A DNA stretch of 64,000 nt from an uncultured Litoreibacter sp. GTDB lineage: Bacteria; Pseudomonadota; Alphaproteobacteria; Rhodobacterales; Rhodobacteraceae. Position 1 is the first letter of the stretch, and the number at the start of each line of letters is the position of its first letter. Both the position numbers and the translations under genes were made by a program. Shown one piece after another: positions 16,299 to 34,210 of the stretch. The stretch lies in NCBI RefSeq assembly GCF_947487515.1, contig NZ_CANKWO010000003.1, positions 327,103 to 391,102 on the forward strand, read 5' to 3'. Under the pieces are notes generated by a model. It was not told the DNA's origin, ran no database searches, and saw only the letters and a list, made by a program, of their open reading frames with translations.

Positions 16299-16697
16299 CT
16301 ATCGGTCGAGGCTGGACAATATGGCTGACGCGGTTGCCTCGTTGATGGCGAGGACCGTGTTGTAGAGGGTCGCCAATCTCAAAAGCGATTTGACGTCGAC
16401 ATCATGGGGGAGTGCCGACAACGGATCGGTAAAGAAGATGAGTGTACCCAATCGTCCTTCCGCAATCATTGCGCCGATTTGAGCGTCCCCGCCCAACGGG
16501 CCACTTTTGAGCCGCGTGATCGGCAAGTTCACTTCGTCGGCAATCCGCCCGCCGGTCGTCCCTGTGCCGAAAAGTTCGAACTCGCGCAGGATGTCGGCAT
16601 TTGCCCCAGCCCATTCGACCATGCGGTCTTTCATTTGGTCATGCGCGACCAGCGCGATGCTCCGGTCGCCACCGGTTGGGGTCGCCTTATGTGTCAT
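16299..16697 (-). CDS. mgsA: Methylglyoxal synthase
   Basis: Converts dihydroxyacetone phosphate to methylglyoxal and phosphate, a bypass of lower glycolysis. 132 residues from the ATG at 16697 (AGAGGA lies 9 bp upstream; the TTG two codons earlier is less likely). Family motifs: A-L-V-A-H-D-x-x-K with the catalytic region near residue 15-20, the phosphate loop G-T-G-T-T-G-G, and S-G-P-L-G-G-D-A-Q-I-G-A followed by F-T-D-P-L. The start overlaps the end of the gntR gene by 11 bp, so the two are co-transcribed. A DHAP-consuming enzyme beside this cluster could handle excess triose phosphate from it. Confidence 0.93.
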   Translation of the reverse strand: MTHKATPTGGDRSIALVAHDQMKDRMVEWAGANADILREFELFGTGTTGGRIADEVNLPITRLKSGPLGGDAQIGAMIAEGRLGTLIFFTDPLSALPHDVDVKSLLRLATLYNTVLAINEATASAILSSLDR

Positions 16698-17634
16698 CGT
16701 CAAGTTTCCTCTGACTGCTGGTATCCGCGGCCCAGTTCCAAGCGAGCGGGGATTTTCGTTTAAGCGCCCCGCTTAAGTGTTGCCGCATTCTGTAGGAGGC
16801 ATCGGCGATATTGCCCAATTCAAGTAGCGACAAAATCTCGAGGTGTTCGGTGCATTGCTCGATCAACCGCTCTCGGTTTATCTCGGCGCGATATTCCATC
16901 AAGCGCCGCATGCGGTTCACCCGTTGAAGAGACATTAAGAAGAAAGGGTTGCCTGACATTTTGATGATGTCTTCGTGGAACGTTGACCCGTTCTCGAGAA
17001 GAGATTCCCCATGGGCGGAGTTCAGATCGATCTCCAGCATATGCTCTTGGGTGCGGCGTTGCTCGTCCAGAACTTTGTGATCCAGCTCGAACGAGGGCTC
17101 AAGCATTGCCACGGGTTCAATCGCCATCCGGAACCGGTAGATTTCATCAAAGGCCTCGGGTGTTTTCGCGACTGGAAGAAAGCGCCAACCGTACCCTTCC
17201 TTTCGTTCTGCCCAGCCTTCGCGTGCTGCGCGAACCAGAAGTTCGCCGACCTTGGCCTTGGTCCAATCATACTTCTGGCGCAAAAATTGTTCTGTGACGT
17301 CTTCGGGGATTTCATTGGTTAGCCAATCGTCCGCCAGTCTTTGATAATCGTCTGCCTGACCCTGATCAGTGTCTTTCAGGGTATCCTTGATACTTGGCGG
17401 CAATTGATCGGCGACGAAGTAGCCGCGGTTGGCCTGACGAACGAGAATATTCTGGGCCTCAAGGGTGATCAGTGCTTCGCGCACGGGGGTTCGTGAGACG
17501 CCGTAGCGATCCGCCACTTGCTGCGCGCCGATATGTTGCCCTTGTTTCAGTGCTCCGGTCACAATGTCGTGTATCAGTCGATTGGATATCTTTCGTGACA
17601 GTTCGCTCGTTCGCACAGGTGGGGTCACTTTCAT
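16687..17634 (-). CDS. GntR-family (FCD) regulator with an extra winged-helix-like segment
   Basis: Probable ligand-responsive repressor of the adjacent tct cluster. 315 residues against ~230-250 for a usual FadR/FCD protein. Residues ~10-75 form the GntR winged helix (Q-Q-V-A-D-R-Y-G-V-S-R-T-P-V-R-E-A-L). Residues ~95-165 are extra and look like a second winged helix (Y-D-W-T-K-A-K-V-G-E-L-L ... G-Y-G-W-R-F-L-P). The rest is a helical FCD sensor domain with a His metal-ligand candidate in F-H-E-D-I-I-K-M-S-G-N-P-F-F. It is divergent from tctC, and a long inverted repeat lies 39 bp upstream of its start. Confidence 0.88.
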   Translation of the reverse strand: MKVTPPVRTSELSRKISNRLIHDIVTGALKQGQHIGAQQVADRYGVSRTPVREALITLEAQNILVRQANRGYFVADQLPPSIKDTLKDTDQGQADDYQRLADDWLTNEIPEDVTEQFLRQKYDWTKAKVGELLVRAAREGWAERKEGYGWRFLPVAKTPEAFDEIYRFRMAIEPVAMLEPSFELDHKVLDEQRRTQEHMLEIDLNSAHGESLLENGSTFHEDIIKMSGNPFFLMSLQRVNRMRRLMEYRAEINRERLIEQCTEHLEILSLLELGNIADASYRMRQHLSGALKRKSPLAWNWAADTSSQRKLDDDT

Positions 17635-17672
17635 GATGCCTAGAAGTCAGGTTGGATTGCATTTTCTAATCG

Positions 17673-17701
17673 GCATGAGGCCAGAAAAACTGGCTTTATG
17701 C
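17673..17701. promoter_or_regulatory. Interrupted palindrome, candidate GntR operator
   Basis: Arms GCATGAGGCCAG and CTGGCTTTATGC match at 10 of 12 positions around a 5-bp A-tract. It lies in the 342-bp divergent gap between gntR (start 17634) and tctC (start 17977). The same gap also has a TGATATCA palindrome at 17904-17911 and AT-rich stretches that should hold both promoters. No ORF in the gap is credible. Confidence 0.45.
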
Positions 17702-17976
17702 AAATTAAAAGCCGAAAAATACGGACTGTTGCGGCAATTTCTCACCCCAGCTTGCAAGAGCATTCTCCCAAATCAGAGCCGTCAGGCGATCACATTCGTG
17801 TCAGTGGAATTGGGTAAATCATTGTTAATATTAGGTTAATCGGAGTTTTCAATAAGGGCGCAGGAATATCGATTGCACAAGTGAAAATATGTATTGGCTT
17901 TTATGATATCAATATGCAATTCATTGGGGGAGCGCAGGAATCGCGCTTGGGAGTTTACTCAATGGGAGGACGATCA

Positions 17977-18963
17977 ATGTTCATGAAATTTACACGGGTC
18001 AGCTTGCTTGCTGTCGCCACAACACTAACAGGTGCCACAGGCGCTTTTGCAGAGTTCAAGGCGGAAAGCCCGCAGTGCATCGCACCATCCAACCCTGGTG
18101 GCGGTTGGGACTTTATTTGCCGTACAACGGCGAAGTACCTGTTTGATCTGAAAGTCATCGAAGATTCGATGCAGGTCACAAACATGTCTGGCGGCGGCGG
18201 CGGTGTTGCTTTCGCGCATGTCACTAAAGAGCGCAACGAAGACAACAACCTGATCGTTGCTGCATCTATGAGCACCAGCGCACGTATTGCTCAAGGTATC
18301 TACGAAGGTGCTGAGCAGGACGACGTTCACTTCTTGGCGACATTCGGCGCTGAGTACGGTGCGATCGCTGTTCGCGCGGATTCACCTTACACATCCCTCA
18401 AGCAAATGATGGATGACATTGTAGCGGATCCTAAGTCTGTTGGCATCGCTGGCGGTTCTTCTGTTGGCAGCTTTGACCACATCAAGCCGATGCTGGTTGC
18501 ACGCGAAGCAGGTTTGGCCGATGTGACGCAAATGAAATACGTCTCATTTGACGGCGGCGGCGAAGCTATGACTGGCCTTCTGTCCGGTGCGGTTGAAGCG
18601 CTTTCGGGTGACTTCTCTGAAATGTTGGGCTTCTTGGAATCAGGTGACATTCGCATCCTGACCATCATGGCGCCTGAGCGTTTGAAGAACTTCCCTGACA
18701 TCTCCACAGCCAAAGAAGAAGGTTACGATGTTGTTGGTGCGAACTGGCGCGGTCTCTACATGCCAGCTGGTGCAACTGACGAAGCCAAAGAATTCTGGAA
18801 AGGCGCAATCATGACGCTGACACAGGACCCAGGTTTCCAAGCAGAGCTTGAAGCAGCAGCGATCGAGCCATTCAACAACTTCGGCGATGACATGCACAAG
18901 TTCGTAGCTGGCAGCATTGCAGATGTGACCAAGCTTTCCAAAGAAATTGGCATCATCAAGTAA
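17977..18963 (+). CDS. tctC: Tripartite tricarboxylate transporter, periplasmic binding protein
   Basis: Binding protein of a TTT-family, ion-driven carboxylate importer. 328 residues from the ATG at 17977, which follows TGGGAGGA; an earlier frame start at 17881 would bury the signal peptide. Sec signal peptide at 1-26 (ends T-G-A-F-A-E). Then the Bug/TctC fold: I-A-P-S-N-P-G-G-G-W-D-F, the ligand loop M-S-G-G-G-G-G-V-A-F and G-I-A-G-G-S-S-V-G-S-F-D-H. Its codons are those of a highly expressed gene. A perfect hairpin separates it from tctB. TTT proteins bind citrate, tartrate, aromatic acids and others; the ligand cannot be read here. Confidence 0.93.
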   Translation: MFMKFTRVSLLAVATTLTGATGAFAEFKAESPQCIAPSNPGGGWDFICRTTAKYLFDLKVIEDSMQVTNMSGGGGGVAFAHVTKERNEDNNLIVAASMSTSARIAQGIYEGAEQDDVHFLATFGAEYGAIAVRADSPYTSLKQMMDDIVADPKSVGIAGGSSVGSFDHIKPMLVAREAGLADVTQMKYVSFDGGGEAMTGLLSGAVEALSGDFSEMLGFLESGDIRILTIMAPERLKNFPDISTAKEEGYDVVGANWRGLYMPAGATDEAKEFWKGAIMTLTQDPGFQAELEAAAIEPFNNFGDDMHKFVAGSIADVTKLSKEIGIIK

Positions 18964-18974
18964 CTAAATAAAAA

Positions 18975-19002
18975 TGGCTGATCCATTCTGATGGATCAGC
19001 CA
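18975..19002 (+). promoter_or_regulatory. Perfect 12-bp hairpin between tctC and tctB
   Basis: TGGCTGATCCAT pairs fully with ATGGATCAGCCA around a TCTG loop, 12 bp after the tctC stop. No T-tract follows. It probably protects the tctC mRNA 3' end, so that the binding protein is made in excess over the permease. Confidence 0.65.
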
Positions 19003-19028
19003 GCATCTTACATTCCTGGGAGATTAAG

Positions 19029-19460
19029 ATGAGTGACCGTATCTTTGGTGGTTTTGGGCTGGCCCTTGCCATTTTCTACATTTGGGCCGCCTCGATAATT
19101 AAAGACAGCTTTATGGTTGATGTAGTGGGCCCTCGGGCCTTTCCTTACATCGTCGGGACCGTATTGGCTCTCACCTCCATCTACTTCATTGCGCGGCCGG
19201 ACGAAGAACCGAAATGGCCAATCTTGCGTGATATGGCAGAAATTCTATTCGCTACGGCGGTCATGGTTCTTTACGCGTTGCTTTTGTCTGATGTCGGCTT
19301 CGTCATCTCGACAACATTCGCAACAGCATACCTGACATGGCGCCTTGGTACTCAACCCCTATGGTCACTGCTTGTAGGCCTACTGACCGCTGTCGGTATC
19401 TACGTTGTTTTCCATCTTATCCTCGGCCTCGCGTTGGCTGAAGGCCCACTTGGATTCTGA
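19029..19460 (+). CDS. tctB: Tripartite tricarboxylate transporter, small membrane subunit
   Basis: 143 residues with four predicted transmembrane helices (about 5-23, 33-50, 73-95 and 108-138), the usual layout of TctB. The helices include P-R-A-F-P-Y-I-V-G-T-V-L-A, typical of the family's P-R-x-F-P motif. GGGAGATTAAG precedes the ATG. It lies 11 bp before tctA, with which it forms the membrane complex. Confidence 0.92.
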   Translation: MSDRIFGGFGLALAIFYIWAASIIKDSFMVDVVGPRAFPYIVGTVLALTSIYFIARPDEEPKWPILRDMAEILFATAVMVLYALLLSDVGFVISTTFATAYLTWRLGTQPLWSLLVGLLTAVGIYVVFHLILGLALAEGPLGF

Positions 19461-19471
19461 GGTAACTAAAC

Positions 19472-21016
19472 ATGGATACTCTCTCGCTACTTTTTGATGG
19501 CTTTGCCATCGCGCTGACACCGCAGAACCTCTTTCTGTCTGTCGTTGGCTGTTTCTTGGGAACGCTTATGGGGGCTTTGCCTGGTCTTGGACCGGCAAAC
19601 GGTGTCGCCATCTTGATTCCTATCGCATTTTCGCTCGGGCTTGGCCCGATCCCATCGCTCATTTTGCTCACCAGTGTTTACTACGGTGCGATGTATGGGG
19701 GGCGGATCAGTTCGATCTTGCTGAATATTCCCGGTGATGAACCGGCGATGATGACCTGTATCGACGGCTACCCCATGGCCCTGAAAGGGCAGGCGGGGGA
19801 GGCCTTATCTCTCGGCGGCGTCGCATCGTTTGTCGGTGCCTTCGTTGCAACCATCGGTCTGGTAATCCTTGCGCCGCAGTTGGTGAAAATTGCGCTGCTG
19901 TTCGGTCCTGCAGAATACTTCGTCCTGTTTACAGTTGCATTCGCAACCCTTGGCGGCGTGTCTTCAACCAATCAGGCCAAATCAGCCTTCGCTGCTGCTT
20001 TGGGTCTGGGGATTGCGATGATCGGCAGTGACTCACAAACAGGGTCGCAGCGGTTCACCTTCGATCACATCCACCTTTATGACGGGATTGACTTCCTGAT
20101 CGCCATCGTTGGCCTGTTTGCCCTGAGTGAAGTTCTGATCTTTCTGGAGCATCACAAAGGCGGCGCAGCCGGAACAACTGGATCCGCCAAAGTTGGGCGC
20201 ATTCTTCCTGATTTCAAAATGATCAAGAGCTGCATTCCCTCCATGGCGCGGGGCACAGGGCTTGGGTTCTTCTCAGGCGTTCTTCCCGGTGCGGGTGCTT
20301 CGTTGGGATCGTTCCTTGCGTATTCTCTTGAAAAGCAAACAGTCGACCGTGATGGGAAGACCTTTGGTAAAGGTGACCCACGTGGTGTTGCAGCCCCTGA
20401 GGCTGGTAACAATGCGGCAGCCGGTGGCGCGCTTGTGCCAATGTTGTCGCTTGGTGTGCCAGGCTCGGGAACGACGGCTGTTATGTTGGCGGTGCTTTTG
20501 CAACTCAACATCACCCCAGGACCTCTTCTGTTCACTAAGAACCCAGATGTGGTTTGGGGGCTGATTGCAGCGCTCTTCATTGCGAACTTCATCTTGCTTT
20601 TGATGAACGTACCGCTGGTTGGCCTGTTTACGCGGGTTCTGCTGATCCCCACACGCATCTTGATGCCTGTCGTCGCAATGATTTCCTTCGTGGGCATCTA
20701 TTCGATCACCGGTTCAACTTTTGATGTGCTGCTGATGGTCGGGTTCGGATTTGCGGGTTGGCTCTTGCGGAAACTTGAGGTGCCTTTGGTGCCGGTGATC
20801 CTTGGTATTCTTCTGGGCAACCAGATGGAGGTCAACTTGCGCCGTGCCATGACGATTTCTGACGGGGACTGGTTGGTCCTAGTGGGAAGCCCGCTTGCCA
20901 TCATCCTTTGGTTGATCGCGATCACAGGGTTCATGCTGCCGATGTTCATCGGTCGCCGCATGAAATCCCGTATCGAGGACGAACGCAAAACAAGCGAAAC
21001 ACCACTGGGCGACTAA
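19472..21016 (+). CDS. tctA: Tripartite tricarboxylate transporter, large permease subunit
   Basis: 514 residues, about 12 transmembrane helices. The N-terminal signature G-T-L-M-G-A-L-P-G-L-G-P-A-N-G-V-A-I is the conserved first half of the family's duplicated motif. The second copy is G-V-L-P-G-A-G-A-S-L-G-S-F near residue 270. E-A-G-N-N-A-A-A-G-G-A-L-V-P and L-G-V-P-G-S-G-T-T-A-V are also canonical. It ends 57 bp before a dehydrogenase gene whose ribosome site follows, so the transporter and enzymes are probably one operon. Confidence 0.95.
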   Translation: MDTLSLLFDGFAIALTPQNLFLSVVGCFLGTLMGALPGLGPANGVAILIPIAFSLGLGPIPSLILLTSVYYGAMYGGRISSILLNIPGDEPAMMTCIDGYPMALKGQAGEALSLGGVASFVGAFVATIGLVILAPQLVKIALLFGPAEYFVLFTVAFATLGGVSSTNQAKSAFAAALGLGIAMIGSDSQTGSQRFTFDHIHLYDGIDFLIAIVGLFALSEVLIFLEHHKGGAAGTTGSAKVGRILPDFKMIKSCIPSMARGTGLGFFSGVLPGAGASLGSFLAYSLEKQTVDRDGKTFGKGDPRGVAAPEAGNNAAAGGALVPMLSLGVPGSGTTAVMLAVLLQLNITPGPLLFTKNPDVVWGLIAALFIANFILLLMNVPLVGLFTRVLLIPTRILMPVVAMISFVGIYSITGSTFDVLLMVGFGFAGWLLRKLEVPLVPVILGILLGNQMEVNLRRAMTISDGDWLVLVGSPLAIILWLIAITGFMLPMFIGRRMKSRIEDERKTSETPLGD

Positions 21017-21073
21017 GCCCGACCTTCAAAACATTAATTTAACTTGGCTTCGGCCAATATAGGAGACAACAAA

Positions 21074-22159
21074 ATGCGTATCATGACCTTACCCTGCGAT
21101 GGAATCGGGCCTGAAATCATGGCCGCGACGCTTGAAGTGGTTGAGGCAGCAAACAAGCGGTTTGATCTTGGGTTGACCTTCCATGAAGAAGAGTCCGGCT
21201 TCACCAGCCTCAAGAAACACGGCATTACGCTGCGTGATGAAGTGCTGGAGCGCGGCCGCAACGACTTTGATGGCGTGATCCTTGGGACACAATCCCACAT
21301 GGATTACCCGCCAGTCGTGGAAGGTGGCCGCAACGTCAGCGCCGGGTTCCGCATCGGATTGGACCTCTACGCCAATGTCCGCCCTGCACGTAGCCGCAGC
21401 TTCCTGCCAAACAAGGCAGAGGGCATGGATCTGGTCATCATGCGTGAGGCGACGGAAGGGTTCTACCCTGACCGCAACATGTACAAAGGTGTCGGTGAAA
21501 TGATGCCGGACCCAGACATGGCGCTGTCCGTGCGCAAAATCACCCGTCACGGCTCCATGCGGATTTGCCGCGAGGCCTTCAAGCTGGCCATGCAGCGTGA
21601 AAAGAAAGTGGCTGCCATCCACAAGGCCAACTCTTTCTTGATGACTGACGGTCTGTTCCTCGAGTGCTTCCGTGAAGTTGCTAAGGACTACCCAGAGGTC
21701 GAAACCGAAGAGCTGATCGTTGACGCCTTCGCCGCTCTGTTGGTGCGCAAGCCACAAGAGTATGACGTTGTCGTCGCGACAAACTTCTATGGTGACATTC
21801 TGTCTGATCTGGCATCGGAACTGTCCGGCTCTCTGGGCTTGGCTGGCTCGATCAACGCGAATGCTGAAACAGGGTTGTGTTGTGCTCAGGCGCAGCACGG
21901 TTCTGCTCCTGACATTGCTGGTAAGAACGTTGCGAACCCAACCTCGTTGATCCTGTCGGCCTCCATGATGCTGATCTGGCTTGGCGAACAGCGCGGCATT
22001 CAGAAGCTTATGGATGCGGGACAGGCTATTGCTGATGCGGTTGATGCGGTGATCGATGATCCGGCAAAACGCACACGCGACATTGGCGGCACAGTCAACA
22101 CAGACGCATTTGGTAGCTTCGTCGCAGAAGCTGTTTCCAAAGAGTCTGTGGCAGCCTAA
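21074..22159 (+). CDS. Isocitrate/isopropylmalate/tartrate-type beta-hydroxyacid oxidative decarboxylase
   Basis: 361 residues from the ATG at 21074 (TAGGAGA lies 7 bp upstream). NAD(P)- and metal-dependent family that oxidises a 2-hydroxy acid and often decarboxylates it. The active-site set is present: substrate arginines in N-V-R-P-A-R-S (~101-107), Tyr131 in E-G-F-Y-P-D-R-N, Lys184 in H-K-A-N-S, and metal aspartates near 217, 241 and 245 (N-F-Y-G-D-I-L-S-D-L). It differs from LeuB in the specificity loop before the arginines. Context with tctCBA, an OtnK kinase and an aconitase suggests a substituted malate, tartrate or isocitrate analogue as substrate. Confidence 0.85.
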   Translation: MRIMTLPCDGIGPEIMAATLEVVEAANKRFDLGLTFHEEESGFTSLKKHGITLRDEVLERGRNDFDGVILGTQSHMDYPPVVEGGRNVSAGFRIGLDLYANVRPARSRSFLPNKAEGMDLVIMREATEGFYPDRNMYKGVGEMMPDPDMALSVRKITRHGSMRICREAFKLAMQREKKVAAIHKANSFLMTDGLFLECFREVAKDYPEVETEELIVDAFAALLVRKPQEYDVVVATNFYGDILSDLASELSGSLGLAGSINANAETGLCCAQAQHGSAPDIAGKNVANPTSLILSASMMLIWLGEQRGIQKLMDAGQAIADAVDAVIDDPAKRTRDIGGTVNTDAFGSFVAEAVSKESVAA

Positions 22160-22170
22160 GGCCGCATCTT

Positions 22171-22228
22171 ACAGGCAAAAGTGCCTGTGAACACTATCGG
22201 CGCCACCTGAAATGGCTCAGGTGGCGCC
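22171..22228 (+). promoter_or_regulatory. Two consecutive intercistronic hairpins
   Basis: ACAGGCA/TGCCTGT (22171-22188, loop AAAG) is followed by a perfect 12-bp stem GGCGCCACCTGA/TCAGGTGGCGCC (22199-22228, loop AATGGC). They fill the gap between the dehydrogenase and the next gene. The second hairpin is followed by GTGTCCTTTCC. Either partial termination or mRNA processing is likely. Confidence 0.6.
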
Positions 22229-22252
22229 GTGTCCTTTCCTTCGGATACCAGC

Positions 22253-22915
22253 ATGAAAACGCATCCCAGAATTGCCCTGATCCACGCAACACGAGTGGCG
22301 ATTGATCCTATTGAAGCAGCTGCCAAGGCACTTTGGCCCGAGGCTGAAACAATCACGATCCTCGAAGAAGGTCTTTCTACGGATCGGGCCAAATCGGAAA
22401 AACTCTCCGATGATATGTCCCGCCGGATTATCGATCTTTCGCACTATGCGGCGGACGTGAAATCGGATGGTATCCTCTATACATGTTCAGCATTTGGCGC
22501 GGCGATCGAGCAGGCCAATGACGAACTAAGCATTCCGGTCATGAAGCCCAATGAGGCCATGTTTGATGCCGCCTTTGACCATGGCGACCGCATTGCCATG
22601 ATCTACACATTCCAACCCGCCGCTCAGGGAATGGAAGAAGAATTCAGCGAGGCCGCGAAAAGCAAAGGTAGCGGCGCGCAAATCACATCCTACTTCTGCG
22701 AAGGAGCCTTGGAGGCAAAACGGGCGGGCGATGACGCGACGCATGACCGCCTGATAGCACAAACCGCCGCAACCATTCGCGATGCGGATGCGATCATGCT
22801 GGCGCAGTTTTCCATGGCCGGCGCGGCAGAAGCCGTGCGCAACGAAGTCGACATCCCCGTCCTCACAAGCCCCGAAGCAGCCATTGCTGAAATTCGGCGG
22901 CGTGTAGAAACTTAA
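22253..22915 (+). CDS. Aspartate/glutamate racemase-fold protein with only the first catalytic cysteine
   Basis: 220 residues from the ATG at 22253; a GTG at 22229 is also in frame, and neither has a strong ribosome site. The fold is that of Asp/Glu/hydantoin racemases and maleate isomerase. The first catalytic cysteine is C78 in Y-T-C-S-A-F-G. Where the second cysteine is expected (~185) the sequence is L-A-Q-F-S-M-A, so two-base racemisation is unlikely. One-cysteine relatives include decarboxylases and isomerases such as arylmalonate decarboxylase, although that enzyme keeps the other cysteine. It lies between the dehydrogenase and otnK and probably acts on a pathway acid. Confidence 0.75.
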   Translation: MKTHPRIALIHATRVAIDPIEAAAKALWPEAETITILEEGLSTDRAKSEKLSDDMSRRIIDLSHYAADVKSDGILYTCSAFGAAIEQANDELSIPVMKPNEAMFDAAFDHGDRIAMIYTFQPAAQGMEEEFSEAAKSKGSGAQITSYFCEGALEAKRAGDDATHDRLIAQTAATIRDADAIMLAQFSMAGAAEAVRNEVDIPVLTSPEAAIAEIRRRVET

Positions 22916-22932
22916 TCGAAAGACCAAATCCC

Positions 22933-24210
22933 ATGTTTATAGGTGTGATTGCAGATGATTTTACCGGCGCCAGTGATATCGCCAATACATTGGCGAAAGG
23001 TGTAGCGCCTGAAGGCGGTCTGCGGACCGCGCAATTCTCTGGCGTTCCGGTTGGACCTGCTCCGAAGGACATCGAAGCCGGTGTAATCTCGCTTAAAAGC
23101 CGCACAGCCCCCGTTGCCGAGGCCGTGGAAGACAGCCTGCGCGCGCTGCGCTGGCTGATCGATCAAGGATGCGAGCAGTTCATTTTCAAATATTGCTCTA
23201 CTTTTGATTCCACTCGCGAAGGCAACATTGGTCCCGTCGCCGAGGCCCTCGCGAAGGAGCTTGACGCCTCTGGCGTGATCTTCTGCCCAGCCTTTCCGAC
23301 GACCGGCCGCACAATCTATCAGGGCCATCTGTTTGTTCACGACAAGCTGCTGAACGAATCCGGCCTTGAAAACCATCCGCTGACCCCGATGACCGACGCC
23401 AACCTTCAGCGCTGGTTAGGTCACCAAACCAAACTGCCGGTAGGCCTGATCCCGACAAGCACCGTGACGCAAGGGGCAGATGCGATCAGAACCGCGATGA
23501 AAACCGCGGATGAGCCATTCCTCATTGCGGATGCGGTCTCGGACGAAGACCTATTGGTTTGGGGCGAAGTTCTCAAAGGGGCCAAGCTGATCACTGGCGG
23601 CTCCGGCATTGCGCTTGGACTGCCGCGCAACTTCATCAAATCCCAATCGACGGCACGCGATGTCAGCGCCTATGACGGCGTATCCGGCCCAGAGGCGATT
23701 TTGGCGGGCTCTTGCTCCGGTGCGACCCGTGGGCAAATTGACTTCCACGCCCAATCCAACCCCGTGTTTGCCATCGATGTGGCGGGTGTCATGTCCGGTG
23801 ACGTGACCACCGAAACTTTGCTGGAATTCTACAAGGGCCACGTCGGGGAAGCACCGCTGGCGTATTCCTCCGGCAACCCCGAAGAGGTACAGGCCATTCA
23901 AACTCGATTTGGGCGGGAAGCTGTTGCCTCCAAGCTTGACCTGTTGTTCGCCGACACGGCACGCGCGTTGATCGAACTTGGCTATCGCCGGATCGTGGTG
24001 GCGGGTGGCGAGACGTCAGGCGCCGTATCGCAGGCCGTTGTGACTGCGGTGGGGGTACCAGCTATGACCATCGGGCCAGAGATTGACCCAGGCGTGCCGG
24101 TTCTAACCCTCGGGGAGACCAACCCGATTGCCCTTGCGTTGAAATCTGGCAACTTCGGTGCGACCGACTTTTTCACCAAGGCCCTTCGCGTAATGAAGGC
24201 GGGTGCTTAA
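22933..24210 (+). CDS. otnK: Four-carbon acid sugar kinase, 3-oxo-tetronate 4-kinase type (DUF1537)
   Basis: 425 residues. The N-terminal domain begins F-I-G-V-I-A-D-D-F-T-G-A-S-D-I-A, the substrate-binding signature of the family, followed by L-K-S-R and K-Y-C-S-T-F-D-S-T. The C-terminal ATP domain has V-A-G-G-E-T-S-G-A-V near residue 355. The pattern F-D-S-T-x-E-G-N-I-G-P is that of OtnK rather than of D-threonate kinase DtnK. OtnK phosphorylates 3-oxo-tetronate made by a dehydrogenase. Its usual partners OtnC (aldolase), OtnI (isomerase) and LtnD are absent here, and no pdxA2 is present. Confidence 0.88.
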   Translation: MFIGVIADDFTGASDIANTLAKGVAPEGGLRTAQFSGVPVGPAPKDIEAGVISLKSRTAPVAEAVEDSLRALRWLIDQGCEQFIFKYCSTFDSTREGNIGPVAEALAKELDASGVIFCPAFPTTGRTIYQGHLFVHDKLLNESGLENHPLTPMTDANLQRWLGHQTKLPVGLIPTSTVTQGADAIRTAMKTADEPFLIADAVSDEDLLVWGEVLKGAKLITGGSGIALGLPRNFIKSQSTARDVSAYDGVSGPEAILAGSCSGATRGQIDFHAQSNPVFAIDVAGVMSGDVTTETLLEFYKGHVGEAPLAYSSGNPEEVQAIQTRFGREAVASKLDLLFADTARALIELGYRRIVVAGGETSGAVSQAVVTAVGVPAMTIGPEIDPGVPVLTLGETNPIALALKSGNFGATDFFTKALRVMKAGA

Positions 24211-24438
24211 TCTACAAGGCGCTAGCCCTGCTTCAGCAGATGGCGAGCGCTTTGATGTTTGATCGGGGTTTGCCGCTGAGTGACGCAAGACAAATATCAG
24301 CGCGCCTGCCGGACGGCATTGCGAAGACAGGCCACCGAGGTGCTGAAGGAAACCGCGACGCTTCAGGCGCGCAAACGGTTTTGAGACCTTTGGTAAGGTC
24401 AATGAAGAGAAACAACATTTGGTAGGAAGTAGGCCATC

Positions 24439-24912
24439 ATGAAAACCGCTGATCTCATCGACACGAATGCAGCAGACCTAACCCTTGTGCATTTGCCGTT
24501 TCGGCGCTTTGGCGCAAAGGCGCATTTCGCGGGAAAGGTGCAAACGGTCAAATGCTTTGAAGATAACACCGAACTTCGCGCCCAGCTTGAAACACCAGGA
24601 GAAGGTCGCGTGCTGGTCGTCGACGGTGGCGGGTCAACCCGTATTGCCATTTTGGGCGATATGATTGCCGAGCTGGCGATCAAAAACGGCTGGGCCGGAT
24701 TGGTTCTGAACGCCGCCATCCGTGACAGCGCAGAAATTGATCAGATGGATATTCAGGTCTTTGCCCTTGGAACCAGCCCCGTCAAAAGCGCCAAGCGTGG
24801 CTGGGGCGTCGTAGGTGAACCCATTGGTTTTGGCGGTGTCCAGTTTGAGGCTGGAGACTGGATTTACGGCGATGCGGATGGTGTTTTGCACAGCAAGAAG
24901 AAACTGGTCTGA
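24439..24912 (+). CDS. RraA-fold protein, probable aldolase/decarboxylase
   Basis: 157 residues, overall most like RraA (the E. coli RNase E regulator): T-V-K-C-F-E-D-N and V-L-V-V-D-G-G-G-S-T-R are shared. Unlike E. coli RraA it keeps G-D at 73-74 and R95-D96 (A-A-I-R-D-S), the positions that bind substrate and metal in HMG/CHA aldolases of this fold. A lyase or oxaloacetate-type decarboxylase role fits the catabolic context better than RNase control. AGGAAG precedes the ATG. I see no gene in the 228-bp gap before it. Confidence 0.75.
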   Translation: MKTADLIDTNAADLTLVHLPFRRFGAKAHFAGKVQTVKCFEDNTELRAQLETPGEGRVLVVDGGGSTRIAILGDMIAELAIKNGWAGLVLNAAIRDSAEIDQMDIQVFALGTSPVKSAKRGWGVVGEPIGFGGVQFEAGDWIYGDADGVLHSKKKLV

Positions 24913-25967
24913 TTTTCACCTCACCCTCATATCCCGCTGCGCTGGCGGCGCTTGTTGGCGCCGCAGTCGGCGGGTGGCTCGTCTCGTTAACGGGTATTCC
25001 GTTGGGGTGGATGATTGGGTCAATGCTGGTGACGGCGGCGGCCTCACTGGGGGGGGCGTCCGTTAAACAACCCGGCTTTGTGATGGATGTTGTGCGCGCA
25101 TCCATCGGCCTTATGCTCGGAGCGGCTTTCACCCACGAGCTTCTGGCTTCTTTTGCCGCGTGGTGGGTGTCTTTGGCCTTCTTGTTTGTGGCGCTCTCTT
25201 TGATGTTTGTCGCGGCCTTCTTTGCGTTACGGCGGATCGCGGGGTTTGACAAAGCCACAGCGGCGCTTTGTGCCATGCCAGGTGGCATTGCAGAAATGGT
25301 TCTATTGTCCGAGCAGCAAGGGGCCGATCAGGCGCGGGTCGCGATAGTGCATGCGTTGCGCATCGCCATGGCGATCTTGCTGATACCGATACTGGTAAGC
25401 CAAATCACCACGATCGAGCCTGTGGCGGCTGCCTCAACCTCTGGCCTGACATCTTTGGCTGCGTTGGATTGGCTCTGGATTGTCGTTTGCATCGCGGCGG
25501 GGCTGTTGGCGCGGGGGCGTGTGCGAATGCCCGCCCCAATCGTGGTTGTCCCGATGATCATCAGCGCCGCGGTTCATCTGCTTGGCTGGACAATGTTTGA
25601 AGTCCCCGCGTCGATCACGGCGCTTGTACAGGTCTTCATCGGGATCAATGTCGGTGGCCGGTTTGCCGGTGTTCCAATGAAAGCACTCATGGGCGCCCTC
25701 GGCGCCGCTGCCATGGTTGTGGCTTTGCAAATTGGGGTGGCTTTCGGGGGGGCTTTGCTTGTCGCCAAAAGCAGCGGGGCGGATCCCGTGGCGCTTGTGT
25801 TGGCCTTCGCACCTGGCGGTTTGGCTGAAATGTCGATCATCGCGCTTAGCGTGGGCCGTGATGTTGCATTTGTGGGGCTGCACCATGTGTTTCGCGTTCT
25901 CATTGCGCTGAGCTTGGCGCCCTTGTTGCTGTCGTGGCTTCTTAAACCCTCGGGACCTTCAAAATGA
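24909..25967 (+). CDS. AbrB-family (PF05145-type) membrane protein
   Basis: Integral membrane protein with two copies of the AbrB duplication, each ending in a conserved segment: A-M-P-G-G-I-A-E-M and F-A-P-G-G-L-A-E-M. About ten helices. The first helix (A-A-L-V-G-A-A-V-G-G-W-L-V-S-L-T-G-I-P) lies upstream of the first conventional start (TTG 25002). The only start-like codon before it is CTG at 24909, overlapping the rraA stop as CTGA. From there the protein has 352 residues; from 25002 it has 321. The family is often misnamed ammonia monooxygenase or regulator. Carboxylate export or import is possible but unproven. Overlaps the next gene by ATGA. Confidence 0.78.
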   Translation: MIFTSPSYPAALAALVGAAVGGWLVSLTGIPLGWMIGSMLVTAAASLGGASVKQPGFVMDVVRASIGLMLGAAFTHELLASFAAWWVSLAFLFVALSLMFVAAFFALRRIAGFDKATAALCAMPGGIAEMVLLSEQQGADQARVAIVHALRIAMAILLIPILVSQITTIEPVAAASTSGLTSLAALDWLWIVVCIAAGLLARGRVRMPAPIVVVPMIISAAVHLLGWTMFEVPASITALVQVFIGINVGGRFAGVPMKALMGALGAAAMVVALQIGVAFGGALLVAKSSGADPVALVLAFAPGGLAEMSIIALSVGRDVAFVGLHHVFRVLIALSLAPLLLSWLLKPSGPSK

Positions 25968-28552
25968 ACGATATCTCAGTCGACCTTGGCCACAGACAAC
26001 TGCGCGCAGTCGATTTGCGGGGCATTTTCGGAGAGGGCCTAGAGCAGCTTCCCATGGTGCTGCGGTTATTGTGCGAGAACCACATTCGAACGGGAGGGGC
26101 CATTGCCCCAATGCTGAACGCCATGCGCGAACGGCAAAACAGCGGTTTCGAGTTTGAATTTCGCCCCAACCGATTGCTGATGCATGATACGACCTGTACG
26201 CCCGCTTTGGCTGATGTCGCAGGACTGCGCGATGCCGTCGCCGAGGCTGGCGGTGACCCGAGCATTCTGGCCCCGACACTTCCTGTAGATGTGTCCGTCG
26301 ATCATTCGTTGGCGGTTGATGTTTTCGCGTCGAAAAATGCGTTCCTGCAAAATGCGAAGAACGAATATGAGCGCAACTCCGAGCGCTATGCCTTCATGAA
26401 ATGGGCCTCTCAAACCATGGATGGGGTGCGTGTTCATCCGCCTGGCACTGGTATCATGCACACGATCAACCTTGAGCAACTCGCGACAGTGCTGGACGTC
26501 AGTGAAGACGGGTTTGCGCATCCCGATATGCTGCTGGGAACCGACAGCCACACCCCGATGATCAACGGCATCGGGGTTATGGCTTGGGGCGTGGGCGGAC
26601 TAGAAGCCGAAAGCGTTATGTTCGGGCAAACCGTGTTCCTTGCGGTTCCAAGAACTGTTGGCGTGCGTCTGACGGGGCAATTGCCCGCCGGCAGCTTTGC
26701 CACCGACCTTGCTCTGGAGCTGACCCACCGGTTGCGCGAAATGGACGTAACGAGTGAGTTTGTGGAGTTCTTTGGCCCCGGCGTGTCCACGCTAAACGCA
26801 GATTCCCGTGCAGTGGTGGCCAATATGGCACCTGAATATGGGGCGTCGACGGGGTATTTCCCAGTGGACAGCACGACAGTAGATTACTTGATGCGCACAG
26901 GGCGGGATCCACAGCATTGCGCCAGCATTGAGCCGGTTTATCGGGCCATGGGGCTTTGGTTCGACCCTGCGGCTTGCCCGCACTACGACCGCGTTCTGGA
27001 GCTGGATCTTGCGACGGTGTCTTCGGTTATTTCTGGGCCGCGCCGCCCGCAAGACCGATGCGCACCAGGGGAGGCGGCTGAACGGGTTGAAGCCGCAATC
27101 GGGCGGCCGTTGGAGACCGCGAAAACGGCCCCAGACCACTTGCCCGATGGCGCGGTCGGTATCGCAGCGATCACCAGCTGTACCAACACCTCTGACCCCG
27201 CGTTGCTTGTCGCGGCAGGCATTTTGGCACGCAACGCGCGGGCAAGAGGCTTAACATCCGCGCCGTGGGTGAAAACATCCTTGGCGCCTGGATCGCCTTC
27301 GGCGCGCAGCTTGCTGCGAAAATCGGGGCTGGATGACGATTTATCGGCCCTTGGGTTCGACGTCGTCGGGCATGGCTGCACAACATGTATTGGCAATTCA
27401 GGACCGTTGCCGCCGGTGATCGAGCAAGGGCTGACGGACGGTAAGGCGGTCGCAGCGGTCTTGTCGGGCAACCGGAATTTTCCCGGTCGCGTCCACCCAA
27501 AACTTGACCTCGGGTTTCTAGCGTCTCCGCCTATGGTCGTTGCCTATGCATTGAAGGGAAACTTGCATGGGGATATCCAGTCTGACCCTCTTGGGGTTGG
27601 ATCAGACGGGGAAGAGGTCTTTTTGTCCGACGTTTGGCCTGCGCCAGACGACATCCAGCGCGAGATTGCCAACGCCCTTCACGCAAGCGATGTGCCGGAA
27701 GCTTTCGCTTCTGCGGGGAACAGTGCGGCGTGGGACGCAATCTTTGCCCCAAGTACACAGCAGTTCCCTTGGGACGAGGCGTCACGCTACCTCAGACGAC
27801 CAAAGTTCGCCTCGCGCGCGCAAACATCCCGTTTGGGCCGGTATGAGGCCAAGCCTTTGATGGTGCTCGGGAATGACATAACCACCGACCATATTTCGCC
27901 TGCCGGTGCGATCTCCGCCGACAGCGCCGCAGGAAAATGGTTGATCGCGCGCGGCGCGGCACAGGACGATCTGAATGTTTATGCGGCCTATCGCGGAAAT
28001 TGGGAGGTCATGCTGCGCGGGTTGTTCACCAACAGGTTGGTTCGCAATCAACTGCAAGCTGGTTTGGCGCCCTCCGAAACGGTGCTGGAGGACGGGCGGA
28101 CATTGCCGGTTTTTGAGGCAGCCATCGAGCTGTCTCAGAGTGGTCAGAATGCCATTTTGCTGGCTGGCGAGCGCTACGGCATGGGCTCCAGCCGCGATTG
28201 GGCGGCCAAAGGACTGGCTCTTTTAGGCGTCAGAGCAGTGGTTGCACGCAGCTTTGAACGTATTCATCGTTGCAATCTGATCGGCATGGGTATTTTGCCG
28301 CTTCGGATTGAAGATGACTTTGAGCCCCATTCTGCCGGGATAACCGCCTCTGATAAATTCACTATCGATGTGCCCAGTGAGACATTGACCATCGGGCAGA
28401 GAATCCCAGTTCAGATATCGCGATCCAATGGCTTGGTGGACGAAATTTCGTGCTGTGCGGCGGTGGAAACTCAACAGGATTTGGACCTGCTTCGCCAAGG
28501 AGGAGTATTGCCCAATATTCTATCGTCCTGTCTGGATGATAAGCAGGAATAA
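25964..28552 (+). CDS. Aconitase-family hydratase, AcnA type
   Basis: 862 residues, 4Fe-4S hydro-lyase. The cluster cysteines are C406 (T-S-C-T-N) and C472/C475 (G-C-T-T-C-I-G-N-S-G). N-terminal V-D-V-S-V-D-H-S and G-T-D-S-H-T are conserved. The C-terminal swivel domain has G-S-S-R-D-W-A-A-K-G near 740, with the catalytic serine. It is about 30 residues shorter than the housekeeping AcnA of this group and is the last gene of the tct cluster. It is therefore probably a dedicated enzyme for a citrate-like or isocitrate-like substrate rather than the TCA-cycle copy. The substrate is unknown. Confidence 0.87.
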   Translation: MNDISVDLGHRQLRAVDLRGIFGEGLEQLPMVLRLLCENHIRTGGAIAPMLNAMRERQNSGFEFEFRPNRLLMHDTTCTPALADVAGLRDAVAEAGGDPSILAPTLPVDVSVDHSLAVDVFASKNAFLQNAKNEYERNSERYAFMKWASQTMDGVRVHPPGTGIMHTINLEQLATVLDVSEDGFAHPDMLLGTDSHTPMINGIGVMAWGVGGLEAESVMFGQTVFLAVPRTVGVRLTGQLPAGSFATDLALELTHRLREMDVTSEFVEFFGPGVSTLNADSRAVVANMAPEYGASTGYFPVDSTTVDYLMRTGRDPQHCASIEPVYRAMGLWFDPAACPHYDRVLELDLATVSSVISGPRRPQDRCAPGEAAERVEAAIGRPLETAKTAPDHLPDGAVGIAAITSCTNTSDPALLVAAGILARNARARGLTSAPWVKTSLAPGSPSARSLLRKSGLDDDLSALGFDVVGHGCTTCIGNSGPLPPVIEQGLTDGKAVAAVLSGNRNFPGRVHPKLDLGFLASPPMVVAYALKGNLHGDIQSDPLGVGSDGEEVFLSDVWPAPDDIQREIANALHASDVPEAFASAGNSAAWDAIFAPSTQQFPWDEASRYLRRPKFASRAQTSRLGRYEAKPLMVLGNDITTDHISPAGAISADSAAGKWLIARGAAQDDLNVYAAYRGNWEVMLRGLFTNRLVRNQLQAGLAPSETVLEDGRTLPVFEAAIELSQSGQNAILLAGERYGMGSSRDWAAKGLALLGVRAVVARSFERIHRCNLIGMGILPLRIEDDFEPHSAGITASDKFTIDVPSETLTIGQRIPVQISRSNGLVDEISCCAAVETQQDLDLLRQGGVLPNILSSCLDDKQE

Positions 28553-28645
28553 TGAGCGGCTCAAAATAACTACTCATTTGCGTTTAATTGATTGGCATCT
28601 CATAGTGGTCCTCAGCTATTAAAAGTATTTAATCAGGCCGAGCGC

Positions 28646-29377
28646 ATGTCAGCTAAACAAAAAATCTACGCTAGGTTCGTGGAAGATATCCGCAGCGGCG
28701 AGATCCCGATCGGATCGCAACTCCCGACTGAGAAGGTGATTGCCGCCGAATTCTCTGTCAGCCGCTCAACGGTTCAAGCCGTGATGACGCGACTTGCAAA
28801 TGAAGGGATCGTCAAGCGTCAGGCAGGGCGGGGAACTTTCGCGTCGCGCGTTGATGACGACATGTCAGTCAAAGTTGCCTTGGATATTCACAACATCCAG
28901 TCCTTTGAAAACGAGATGGCAGTGGCTGGCGATCGTGTCTCCTACAAATTGGTGTCGTTCACCAAAACCCCGTCGCTGCAACGTGTGGCCCGCAAACTTG
29001 ATGTGGCGCAGGGTACGGAAGTTCGATGCCTCTATCGATTGAGATTTGTGGATGACAATTGCATTGGCTCTGAGGTGAGGTATTTGTCCCCCATGATCGA
29101 TTGGGACGTGTCCTTGGCCGCGCTGGAAACCCAAGGCGGCCACCAGATTATTCAAGAAGGCTTGGGGCTGCGCATTGGGCGAATTGACGCCGCCTTGCGC
29201 GCAGTCTGTGCGAATGAAACGCAGGCACAGGATATGGAGGTCGCCTTGGGCGCGCCGCTCTTGGTGCGATCACATACGATCATTTCCGACGAGGAGCGGG
29301 TCATCTTATATGGCGAGTCCTTTTATGTGGAACCCTTCTCCTTCCGCTACACGGCCAATGTGGCGGGCCATAGCTAA
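28646..29377 (+). CDS. GntR/HutC-family regulator with UTRA domain
   Basis: 243 residues from the ATG at 28646. N-terminal winged helix (L-P-T-E-K-V-I-A-A-E-F-S-V-S-R-S-T-V-Q-A-V-M) at ~20-70. The C-terminal UTRA ligand domain runs from ~90 to 235, with the usual R-L-R-F-V-D and E-R-V-I-L-Y-G-E-S-F-Y. It follows the aconitase gene by 93 bp and converges with the amidohydrolase gene with a 4-bp overlap. It could control the lactonase-TRAP genes, the tct cluster or both; the ligand is probably a sugar acid or carboxylate. Confidence 0.9.
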   Translation: MSAKQKIYARFVEDIRSGEIPIGSQLPTEKVIAAEFSVSRSTVQAVMTRLANEGIVKRQAGRGTFASRVDDDMSVKVALDIHNIQSFENEMAVAGDRVSYKLVSFTKTPSLQRVARKLDVAQGTEVRCLYRLRFVDDNCIGSEVRYLSPMIDWDVSLAALETQGGHQIIQEGLGLRIGRIDAALRAVCANETQAQDMEVALGAPLLVRSHTIISDEERVILYGESFYVEPFSFRYTANVAGHS

Positions 29378-30240
29378 AACCCGAACAGAGAATTCGCGGT
29401 ATCACTCGTAATCTCTTGAAATATTGAATCATTTCCTGACCACTTGCGGATATTGTCCAAGCTGGCGTTGTCGTCAATAGCCATGAAAGGTTCTATCTCG
29501 CTTAGCGGTCGCTGCGCCCTTTCGGATGATTTCCCAGTATGAGGCCAGTCGCTGCCCCAGATCACCCGCCCGCGCGCCGCGGCAAATAATGTCGGTGCGA
29601 CATCATCAAGTGCCGATGTCGTCGAGGCGTAATCGATGGCCCTGCAGGCCCCTGATGCTTTGAGGATGACATTGGGTAAACTGAGGACCTCCAAGAGGCC
29701 GGCAAGCTCTTCGTCTCTTGTAGGGCTTGATGTTTTTAGACCCGCAAAATGATCCAAGATCACCGGACGTCCTAATGACTTGAATGTTTCTGCCATGGCG
29801 ATGGTCACCTTGATCGGCAGAAAGACTTGCAGCATTAAATCTGTTCCAGCCATCGTGCGCGAGATTTCTTGCAGCTGGCGCTCGACGTCCTCAATGGCGT
29901 TCACCCCTGCGGTCTTCAAATTTGCGCGCAGGCCACGAATTCCTTCACCCCAAAGCGCATCGAGATCTTCCTTAGATGTCGATGCGGGAGAGATCACACA
30001 AACACCCCGCGTGCAGTCTTGCCCCCGCTCACTGACGGCCCGAAGCGTGGGGCGATTGTCGGTTCCATGGGGGCTGGGTTGAACGATGACCGCGTTCTGC
30101 CCACCGATTCGTCCCAGATGATTTGCAAGATCAGCGACGTTTGCCGGCCCAGGTGTGTAGGAGCGAGACGCGTCCAGCGGATATTTTTCTGGTGCGAAAA
30201 CATGAACATGGGCGTCGGTGATTGGGAAATGAGTGGTCAT
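29374..30240 (-). CDS. Amidohydrolase-superfamily lactonase (LigI/COG3618-like)
   Basis: 288 residues, TIM barrel. The metal-site opening is I-T-D-A-H-V-H-V-F at ~7-15, the barrel has I-L-D-H-F-A-G, and the catalytic aspartate lies in I-W-G-S-D-W-P-H near 232. The closest known activities in this group are 2-pyrone-4,6-dicarboxylate lactonase, L-fuconolactonase and galactarolactone isomerase. It is divergent from an SMP-30 lactonase across 80 bp, so two lactone-handling enzymes share one promoter region. The substrate is unproven. Confidence 0.85.
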   Translation of the reverse strand: MTTHFPITDAHVHVFAPEKYPLDASRSYTPGPANVADLANHLGRIGGQNAVIVQPSPHGTDNRPTLRAVSERGQDCTRGVCVISPASTSKEDLDALWGEGIRGLRANLKTAGVNAIEDVERQLQEISRTMAGTDLMLQVFLPIKVTIAMAETFKSLGRPVILDHFAGLKTSSPTRDEELAGLLEVLSLPNVILKASGACRAIDYASTTSALDDVAPTLFAAARGRVIWGSDWPHTGKSSERAQRPLSEIEPFMAIDDNASLDNIRKWSGNDSIFQEITSDTANSLFGF

Positions 30241-30320
30241 TTTGGAAAAAGACTACCTTTTTTGTTGATCTGATATTAATTTTGCATTTACCCTACGTCA
30301 AAAGCAATCCAGAGAGTCAC

Positions 30321-31244: not shown

Positions 31245-31279
31245 ATACTGCCGCATGGGACGGCAAAAGGGAGGAAGAT

Positions 31280-31822
31280 GTGATCAAGAAACTGGATGGG
31301 CTACTGTCCGCAATAGAAGTGTGGTCAATGGTGGCCTTGACCTTGCTCGGGTTGGCATTCGCCTTCCTGCAGGTCGTGCTGCGCTACGTGTTCAACACAG
31401 GTATTCACTGGCTGGAAGCTGGGTTGGTCACGGCGCTGATTTGGGCCATGTTGATCGGCTCAGTTCGCGCGGTGCGTGAGGGCTATCACCCGCGTGTGGA
31501 GCTTCTGCCCAATCTTGTCGGCGAGAAGGCCCGTGCCGTTCTCAACTTTCTGGCAATAGGCGGGGCCTTTCTTTTGGCCTGCTTCTTCCTGTGGGACAGC
31601 ATTTTCTACGCGCGCTTCATCGATATGATTAACGCGCTTCATCCGGAGCTGGGGATCAAGCAAGTCTATCCCTTTCTAATCGTTCCCATCATCACCTTTA
31701 TGATGCTTATCCGCTACGGCTTGTTGGCTTGGGCACTTCTTTCAGAGCCCGCCAGCCATTCACCAGATGCGACTTTCAGAAAACAGGTCGGTGACACATC
31801 CGACAAGGGGATCGTAGACTGA
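31280..31822 (+). CDS. TRAP transporter small permease (DctQ type)
   Basis: 180 residues with four transmembrane helices. The start is a GTG at 31280 directly behind GGGAGGAAG; the longer frame upstream overlaps the lactonase and is not coding. The family motif R-Y-V-F-N-T-G-I-H-W-L-E-A is at ~38-50. It forms the membrane complex with the large permease, which starts on the last base of this gene. Confidence 0.92.
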   Translation: MIKKLDGLLSAIEVWSMVALTLLGLAFAFLQVVLRYVFNTGIHWLEAGLVTALIWAMLIGSVRAVREGYHPRVELLPNLVGEKARAVLNFLAIGGAFLLACFFLWDSIFYARFIDMINALHPELGIKQVYPFLIVPIITFMMLIRYGLLAWALLSEPASHSPDATFRKQVGDTSDKGIVD

Positions 31823-33141: not shown

Positions 33142-33147
33142 GACCGG
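33125..33147 (+). promoter_or_regulatory. Hairpin over the dctM-type stop codon
   Basis: Perfect 8-bp stem CCGGTCTC/GAGACCGG with a 7-nt loop that includes the stop codon (33139-33141). It lies 37 bp before the binding-protein gene. It may block degradation from the 3' side or adjust transcription into the binding-protein gene. Confidence 0.45.
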
Positions 33148-33184
33148 TTCAATCCCTGAGTTCAATTCTAACGGAGGAAGAAAA

Positions 33185-34186: not shown

Positions 34187-34210
34187 AACACCTCTTTCAC
34201 ATGACGTTAG

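Follow-up and report, generated by a model that had tools for sequence, protein, structure and literature searches.

We analysed a 64,000-nucleotide stretch of DNA from an uncultured Litoreibacter sp. (Rhodobacteraceae; contig NZ_CANKWO010000003.1), called the window below, in which a run of same-strand genes encodes a complete tripartite tricarboxylate transporter (TTT; TctC, TctB and TctA, all matched by Pfam), a dehydrogenase of the Iso_dh family (IsoDH), a protein with the aspartate/glutamate-racemase fold (AGrac), the 3-oxo-tetronate kinase OtnK, an RraA-family protein, an AbrB-type membrane protein and an aconitase homologue (Acn) (Table 1). On balance we lean slightly towards reading this run as an operon that serves to import and degrade a hydroxylated acid, with the known OtnK and OtnC steps as the probable end of the route. 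The conserved block probably serves a single pathway. We regard this pathway as one version of the OtnK/OtnC route already known, and not as a new kind, because OtnC is linked to the cluster in relatives and a remnant of its gene lies in a gap of the window cluster. Its surprising parts are an apparent exchange of an Iso_dh enzyme for OtnI, a racemase-fold enzyme with a single conserved cysteine and an aconitase carrying a marker of non-citrate enzymes.

Scanning one genome per species, we found 240 relatives of IsoDH and kept the best 80 loci, a sample biased towards close relatives; counts over 56 refer to the loci in which IsoDH is flanked by 9 kb or more in each direction, with 24 shorter loci dropped, and some of the 80 (e.g. 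L082 and L036) are the same contigs as loci that bear our G handles for genomes. AGrac occurred near IsoDH in 53 of the 56 loci, followed by a GntR/FCD regulator (51), OtnK (49), OtnC (45), RraA (38), TctA (35), Acn (27), AbrB (16), an amidohydrolase (14), succinate-semialdehyde dehydrogenase (SSADH; 13), a cupin (12) and tam (7). Direct same-strand neighbours were IsoDH and AGrac in 53/80 loci, AGrac and OtnK in 56/80, OtnK and OtnC in 58/80, and OtnC and RraA in 42/80, with OtnI-like genes present in 6/80 (the same 6 by a profile hidden Markov model, HMM) and LtnD in 0/80. Within the family, a protein search (E <= 1e-90) detected IsoDH relatives in 25 of 295 genomes, its own included, and the TctCBA-IsoDH-AGrac-OtnK order is unchanged in four other family genomes at 88-90% identity. 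The core genes are linked across Alpha-, Beta- and Gammaproteobacteria; the conservation as a block, on which the first-pass annotation of this DNA had made its single-pathway idea depend, was thus found. The frequency of OtnC, together with neighbouring mgsA, tpiA, pyk and GAPN genes, likewise supports its proposed route to triose phosphate through a C4 hydroxy-acid kinase; its view that these enzyme types belong to no known pathway is not supported, since relatives carry OtnC and the lower half is thus the known OtnK/OtnC pathway.

The linked otnC gene has decayed in the window. In two related loci (L036 and L038) an intact otnC, encoding a 213-aa class II aldolase, lies between OtnK and RraA, and the OtnC proteins of relatives pass the model cut-off of 250 bits (L036 307.1, Agrobacterium 323.2, Pantoea 302.6). 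Searched against the corresponding 228-bp gap of the window by tblastn, two OtnC proteins reached 29.3 and 33.1 bits, compared with 25.0 and 23.5 bits for the best of 1000 dinucleotide shuffles, and the gap thus holds a remnant of otnC that is weak but not random. A further remnant occupies the equivalent gap of L039 (38.5 bits, comprising the C-terminal 42 residues and an N-terminal piece), and otnC has therefore decayed in two genera.

Each of three genomes without a linked intact otnC (G000, which is the window genome, G007 and G218) encodes an unlinked OtnC at 51-53% identity. In the window genome this protein scores 295.5 bits against the cut-off of 250, and its gene is followed by an OtnI-like gene (the two together at 334.7-336.1 kb of contig C1), the genome's sole match to the OtnI model NF043033 (C1:335397-336143; 264 bits, under the cut-off of 325). 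LtnD (403.1 bits, cut-off 350) lies beside a second OtnK at 426-428 kb of C1, and the standard L-threonate set is therefore present outside the cluster. The earlier statement that LtnD, OtnI and OtnC are absent holds for linked genes, as the window cluster has no linked OtnI, LtnD or intact OtnC, and fails genome-wide, given the three genes on C1 and the otnC remnant. We accordingly rejected the possibility that the organism is without OtnC, an OtnI-like gene and LtnD, all of which it encodes unlinked on C1.

The relation between Iso_dh enzymes and OtnI was examined across OtnK loci of the order, where 149 genomes gave 86 OtnK hits; 60 loci were picked from long-contig genomes and viewed to about 6 kb on each side, with 4 of them ending early at contig ends. 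Iso_dh-family genes were near OtnK in 24 and OtnI-like genes in 29, with both in 1 locus, Iso_dh only in 23, OtnI-like only in 28 and neither in 8 (Fisher 7e-9, the true significance being lower because related genomes are not independent). At the gene density of the window genome an Iso_dh gene is expected in 1.6% of such stretches, giving 24/60 a chance of 1e-27. Since the OtnI queries themselves fell below the NCBIfam cut-off, we rebuilt the search with a profile HMM of the 29 hits, which returned the identical 29 loci and the identical table. The genes are called OtnI-like, by resemblance, because NF043033 was the best model for 10/10 of those scanned (of the 29) and just 2 of these passed its cut-off. 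LtnD and Iso_dh occurred together in 2/60 loci.

Only 2 of the 24 Iso_dh-OtnK loci (L255 and L270) hold an IsoDH of the window type. The other 22 Iso_dh genes are 33-40% identical to it and fall into two groups, separated by eye from alignments and not by a tree; some lie in operons with OtnK and OtnC, and some are divergent and a few kb off, with a TTT or tripartite ATP-independent periplasmic (TRAP) importer between. Isopropylmalate and isocitrate dehydrogenases, both of the Iso_dh family, oxidise a hydroxyl group in the beta position relative to a carboxylate; the same reaction with a tetronate would yield 3-oxo-tetronate. On the simplest reading, Iso_dh enzymes may dispense with OtnI because they would make 3-oxo-tetronate directly. 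Among these loci, L250, L256, L259 and similar ones combine OtnK and OtnC with a metallo-beta-lactamase-like (MBL-like) neighbour, a TTT or TRAP importer and an Iso_dh gene, with no LtnD or OtnI-like gene; all five of the MBL-like neighbours that we scanned have the metallo-beta-lactamase fold. A similar Iso_dh gene lies near an MBL-like open reading frame (ORF) at 242 kb of contig C4 in the window genome, with no OtnK match there.

A different division of labour would make IsoDH the 2-dehydrogenase of a (2R)-tetronate, in place of LtnD or DenD, and AGrac the 2-oxo/3-oxo isomerase in place of OtnI. Both natural tetronates have the 2R configuration, which the Iso_dh family oxidises, and this arrangement would also fit the presence of AGrac by IsoDH in 53/56 loci and the scarcity of OtnI-like genes (6/80 loci). 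We nevertheless judge it rather unlikely, since AGrac is missing from all 22 OtnK loci with the other two types of Iso_dh, and an OtnI-like gene is missing from 21 of these (the exception being L239), so that Iso_dh itself seems to spare the isomerase. Moreover, L057, L073 and L075 have AGrac next to a TIM-barrel gene of the OtnI-like kind.

IsoDH stays under the cut-off of each of the 17 NCBIfam models that it matched. It shares its Pfam family and conserved framework residues with tartrate/D-malate (TtuC), homoisocitrate and isocitrate dehydrogenases; unlike these enzymes, it scores 226-272 bits where the cut-offs of TIGR02089, TIGR02088, NF040626 and NF006529 are 410-540 (225.8 of 470.4 bits for the tartrate dehydrogenase equivalog TIGR02089), and its relatives at 64% identity or more, among the sequences compared, all lie within its own subfamily. 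In a tree, 85 members at >=64% identity grouped together with a support of 0.51, weak at the clade base, and OtnK was in the same locus for 70/85 of them and for 1/26 relatives at 48-56% (L160), counts that are lower bounds because locus lengths differ. The loop N87-x-S89, tried as a discriminator of substrate specificity, failed as such, the tcuAB-linked relatives sharing it.

For AGrac, a confident structure model (mean predicted local distance difference test 92.1) confirms the fold, its nearest structural matches being arylmalonate decarboxylase (AMDase) and the racemases of hydantoin and glutamate; a phmmer search against PDB sequences gave no match. Asp/Glu racemases use two catalytic cysteines. 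Across 82/82 distinct AGrac sequences Cys78 is the only conserved cysteine, and Phe-Ser is found at 186-187 in all 82; where a weak alignment (E 0.046) puts the second racemase cysteine, 42/82 sequences have His and 40/82 Gln. AGrac is therefore unlike a two-cysteine racemase, and it could be a one-base epimerase, a tautomerase or a decarboxylase. It shares its fold with AMDase and the hydantoin/allantoin racemases (Foldseek TMq 0.62-0.75), from which its single Cys, with Gln or His weakly aligned at the second position, sets it apart; its cysteine presumably lies in the half opposite to the AMDase cysteine.

Acn belongs to one clade of 37 tips (support 1.0), with 0/30 housekeeping enzymes inside and 45 diagnostic columns, in a tree built without 5 duplicate sequences and ORFs below 780 aa. 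At the position of pig Gln72, which we take to participate in substrate binding, His is found in 37/37 clade members (His74 in the window), as well as in Pantoea L071 (sister to the clade, 0.97), in Priestia L162 (within the housekeeping group), in 12/12 AcnD proteins fetched (the top 12 among 23 genomes that exceeded the cut-off) and, judged by motif, in the LeuC-like protein of the window genome. Housekeeping AcnA proteins have Gln in 28/30, with 1 gap and 1 Pro; the motif of E. coli AcnB likewise shows Gln. Because His replaces the Gln of citrate aconitases, as in AcnD and LeuC, Acn probably acts on an acid other than citrate; the first-pass annotation had suggested that it could isomerise the imported acid. 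AcnD, the 2-methylcitrate dehydratase, is likewise an AcnA-type enzyme with His at this site; Acn differs from it in its separate clade and in a score of 703.6 bits against the TIGR02333 cut-off of 1419.85. An AcnA-like protein of G004 (L187) has Pro at the site and is possibly a further aconitase paralogue.

It appears improbable, by contrast, that Acn is merely a second citrate aconitase backing the tricarboxylic acid cycle. Acn does keep the Fe-S cysteines and the checked Arg, Ser, Asp and His residues, and passes the NCBIfam AcnA subfamily model PRK12881 (1097 bits, cut-off 905), but it falls below the aconitase equivalog TIGR01341 (864.7 of 945), its His follows AcnD and LeuC and not the AcnA, AcnB and pig sequences compared, and the window genome already has an AcnA-like gene (910 aa), as well as a LeuC-like one (509 aa), both named by length and motif.

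The RraA-family protein retains the residues of the R-D-x2-E motif, presumably the aldolase residues, which the first-pass annotation had pointed out: 42/43 related RraA proteins match the pattern, the 43rd reading RDSLE and failing further upstream, and E. coli RraA has R-Q at the R-D site. A role of RraA as a plain replacement for OtnC was rejected, RraA following directly after OtnC in 42/80 loci. Methylglyoxal synthase (MgsA) acts on dihydroxyacetone phosphate (DHAP). The mgsA-like neighbour named in the first-pass annotation is indeed present on the minus strand, at about 16356-16622, and recurs in 17/80 related loci; on plasmids, tpiA follows otnC in Rhizobium CB3060, and pyk and GAPN occur with otnK in Paraburkholderia. 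These neighbours speak for DHAP as the product.

The chemistry that we propose from these comparisons would begin with import of a hydroxylated acid by the TTT system. IsoDH would oxidise the hydroxyl beta to the carboxylate, yielding 3-oxo-tetronate either at once or once a second carboxylate has been lost, such that the usual pair of LtnD or DenD with OtnI would be unneeded. AGrac would adjust an intermediate, for example by C2 epimerisation of 3-oxo-tetronate or by a malonate-type decarboxylation, before phosphorylation by OtnK and decarboxylation by OtnC, here supplied by the unlinked copy, would give DHAP for uptake by MgsA or, in some other hosts, by TpiA, GAPN and Pyk. The module of AbrB, Acn, GntR, amidohydrolase, SMP30 and TRAP genes would probably supply this IsoDH as well, starting from a lactone or from a citrate-like acid with a substituent. 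Acids that could yield 3-oxo-tetronate in this way include a tetronate, 2-C-hydroxymethyl-tartrate (apiarate) and, if oxidation takes place at C3, a pentarate, none of which we favour over the others; itatartarate, hydroxycitrate and citrate are weak candidates for the OtnK route, as by paper chemistry none gives 3-oxo-tetronate. A bolder version, to which we give less than even credence, holds that at least three divergent Iso_dh groups are an undescribed class of acid-sugar dehydrogenases, which produce 3-oxo-tetronate in a single reaction and so replace LtnD or DenD together with OtnI, and that the window type, with the single-cysteine racemase-fold enzyme and the non-citrate aconitase, funnels a hydroxylated di- or tricarboxylic acid (e.g. 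pentarate, apiarate or hydroxycitrate) to DHAP.

Several observations weigh against an operon that ends in the OtnK and OtnC steps. The window has no intact linked otnC, the IsoDH clade is weakly supported at its base, and the comparison with OtnI carries the limits given above, namely related genomes and genes named by resemblance. AGrac is found in 0/22 loci of the other two Iso_dh groups. IsoDH relatives at about 50% identity have tcuAB and PrpF-type genes as neighbours, an arrangement that would suit an isocitrate-like tricarboxylate as substrate. Others at 55-57% have genes of the PrpF type, the Ldh family or SSADH nearby, and gammaproteobacterial members of the IsoDH clade (66-68%; L136, L143 and L150) have PrpF genes and no OtnK in the stretch seen; in Cupriavidus, IsoDH is accompanied by tpiA, gpmA, pyk and GAPN, with no AGrac, OtnK or OtnC within the 19 kb seen. 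The textbook series of Acn and IsoDH yields a 3-deoxy-2-oxo acid, which cannot become 3-oxo-tetronate. Since OtnK and OtnC cannot use such a product, either a second substrate reaches IsoDH through Acn, or IsoDH works on a tricarboxylate.

The latter possibility amounts to two pathways in one regulon, with Acn, IsoDH and RraA acting on a substituted tricarboxylate and AGrac, OtnK and OtnC on a co-occurring acid sugar. Hydroxycitrate, for example, would be isomerised and oxidatively decarboxylated to 4-hydroxy-2-oxoglutarate, and aldol cleavage would then release pyruvate and glyoxylate. Acn and IsoDH do occur without OtnK in the stretch seen of L090 and of Priestia L162, the latter also with RraA-family, lactonase and citrate symporter genes, and L138 has IsoDH and RraA without the others; the His marker that Acn shares with AcnD, the lactone-hydrolase-type neighbours and the tam genes point the same way. 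However, AGrac and OtnK track IsoDH more closely (53/56 and 49/56) than do Acn, found in only 27/56, and RraA (38/56), and Acn is absent where Iso_dh enzymes of the two other groups accompany OtnK. We consider such a split unlikely.

Pfam, together with the equivalog NF043035 that OtnK passes, bears out the same-strand importer and enzyme genes from tctC to the aconitase that had been described at first pass; OtnK stays below the cut-offs of other kinases (D-threonate kinase 114.1 of 450 bits, OiaK 92.3 of 700). Overlooked at that stage were the AbrB-type gene, whose end overlaps the aconitase start by 4 bases, both GntR regulators and the amidohydrolase/SMP-30/TRAP set (29374-34186). The sole NCBIfam match of the amidohydrolase is 4-sulfomuconolactone hydrolase, at 95.4 bits against a cut-off of 500.

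Table 1. Features of the gene block and its surroundings in the window.
Feature	Position	Strand	Evidence
mgsA-like (methylglyoxal synthase family), frame start uncertain	16299-16703	-	PF02142 44.5 bits at 16356-16622
GntR/FCD regulator, divergent	16687-17634	-	PF00392 + PF07729
TctC solute-binding protein	17977-18963	+	PF03401 75.6 bits
TctB	19029-19460	+	PF07331 67.4 bits
TctA permease	19472-21016	+	PF01970 492.9 bits
IsoDH, Iso_dh-family dehydrogenase; proposed OtnI-free entry enzyme	21074-22159	+	PF00180 267.5 bits
AGrac, Asp/Glu-racemase-fold enzyme, single conserved Cys78	22253-22915	+	PF01177 52.1 bits (cut-off 31)
OtnK, 3-oxo-tetronate kinase (SBD_N + NBD_C)	22933-24210	+	NF043035 517.2 bits (cut-off 350)
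Intergenic stretch, degraded otnC remnant	24211-24438	+	tblastn vs dinucleotide shuffles
RraA-family protein, aldolase or oxo-acid decarboxylase type by motif	24439-24912	+	PF03737 151.1 bits
AbrB-type membrane protein, possible transporter; true start perhaps upstream	25002-25967	+	PF05145 245.5 bits
Acn, dedicated aconitase paralogue, His74 for citrate-aconitase Gln	25964-28552	+	PF00330 + PF00694
GntR/UTRA regulator	28646-29377	+	PF00392 + PF07702
Amidohydrolase_2, lactone-hydrolase-like	29374-30240	-	PF04909 76 bits
SMP-30/gluconolactonase family	30222-31244	+	PF08450 134.8 bits
TRAP transporter DctQ, DctM, DctP	31127-34186	+	PF04290, PF06808, PF03480

An Rfam scan of 16600-34300 gave zero matches. 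A hairpin with a 13-bp stem lies at 22198-22229 in the gap between IsoDH and AGrac, and hairpins of differing sequence occupy the same place in relatives; though strong in the window, a stem of at least 9 pairs is found in merely 9/53 adjacent pairs. Another hairpin, with a 12-bp stem, lies at 18975-19002 between TctC and TctB, and hairpins are common after solute-binding-protein genes.

The importer varies with the host, TTT systems being found mostly in Rhodobacterales, Fbp-type ATP-binding cassette (ABC) systems in most Rhizobiales loci, and major facilitator superfamily (MFS), DctA or SLC13 carriers in the Paraburkholderia and Pantoea loci. Acn, GntR/UTRA, SMP30 and DctQ follow one another in that order in L082, L086, L100, L101 and L107. 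A gene annotated as tam or resembling it (trans-aconitate methyltransferase) occurs in Rhizobiales versions of the cluster (L067, L129, L139, L141, L145, L147, L149 and L155), hinting at an aconitate-like by-product. Clusters with AGrac, OtnK and a small protein annotated as a solute-binding protein but no IsoDH were seen on plasmids of Agrobacterium vitis (L075), Erwinia (L163) and Pantoea (L073), with an alpha-hydroxy acid oxidase in L075 and L163 and an OtnI-like TIM-barrel gene in L073 and L075. On an Ancylobacter plasmid (L072, 7559-8998) an oxidoreductase with DRL_cat and SAF domains takes the position of IsoDH beside AGrac, otnK and otnC.

If the proposed route is correct, the annotation set of an "isocitrate/isopropylmalate dehydrogenase family protein", an "aspartate/glutamate racemase family protein" and otnK, which recurs in marine and plant-associated Proteobacteria, would acquire a testable function, and a known pathway could do without its OtnI step. 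Proteins annotated as "AcnA" but carrying His at the Gln72 site could likewise be separated as probable non-citrate enzymes. In our searches of the openly licensed literature, no description of an IsoDH/AGrac/OtnK/Acn cluster turned up.

The nearest known system is the L-threonate/D-erythronate pathway, which uses LtnD or DenD, OtnI, OtnK and OtnC (Zhang et al. 2016, as outlined in PMC12540250 and PMC10580937). Measured against that outline, the cluster has OtnK in common with the pathway, as well as an Aldolase_II-type OtnC in most relatives and DHAP as the expected product. Unlike it, the cluster carries an Iso_dh enzyme and a racemase-fold protein in place of linked LtnD and OtnI, and adds a TTT importer together with aconitase, RraA and lactonase-type modules, with otnC decayed in the window. 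The system of Guo et al. 2024, in the form in which PMC12540250 cites it, likewise has no OtnI; its OtnC is of the F_bP_aldolase type, whereas the OtnC proteins of relatives here are of the Aldolase_II type (L036).

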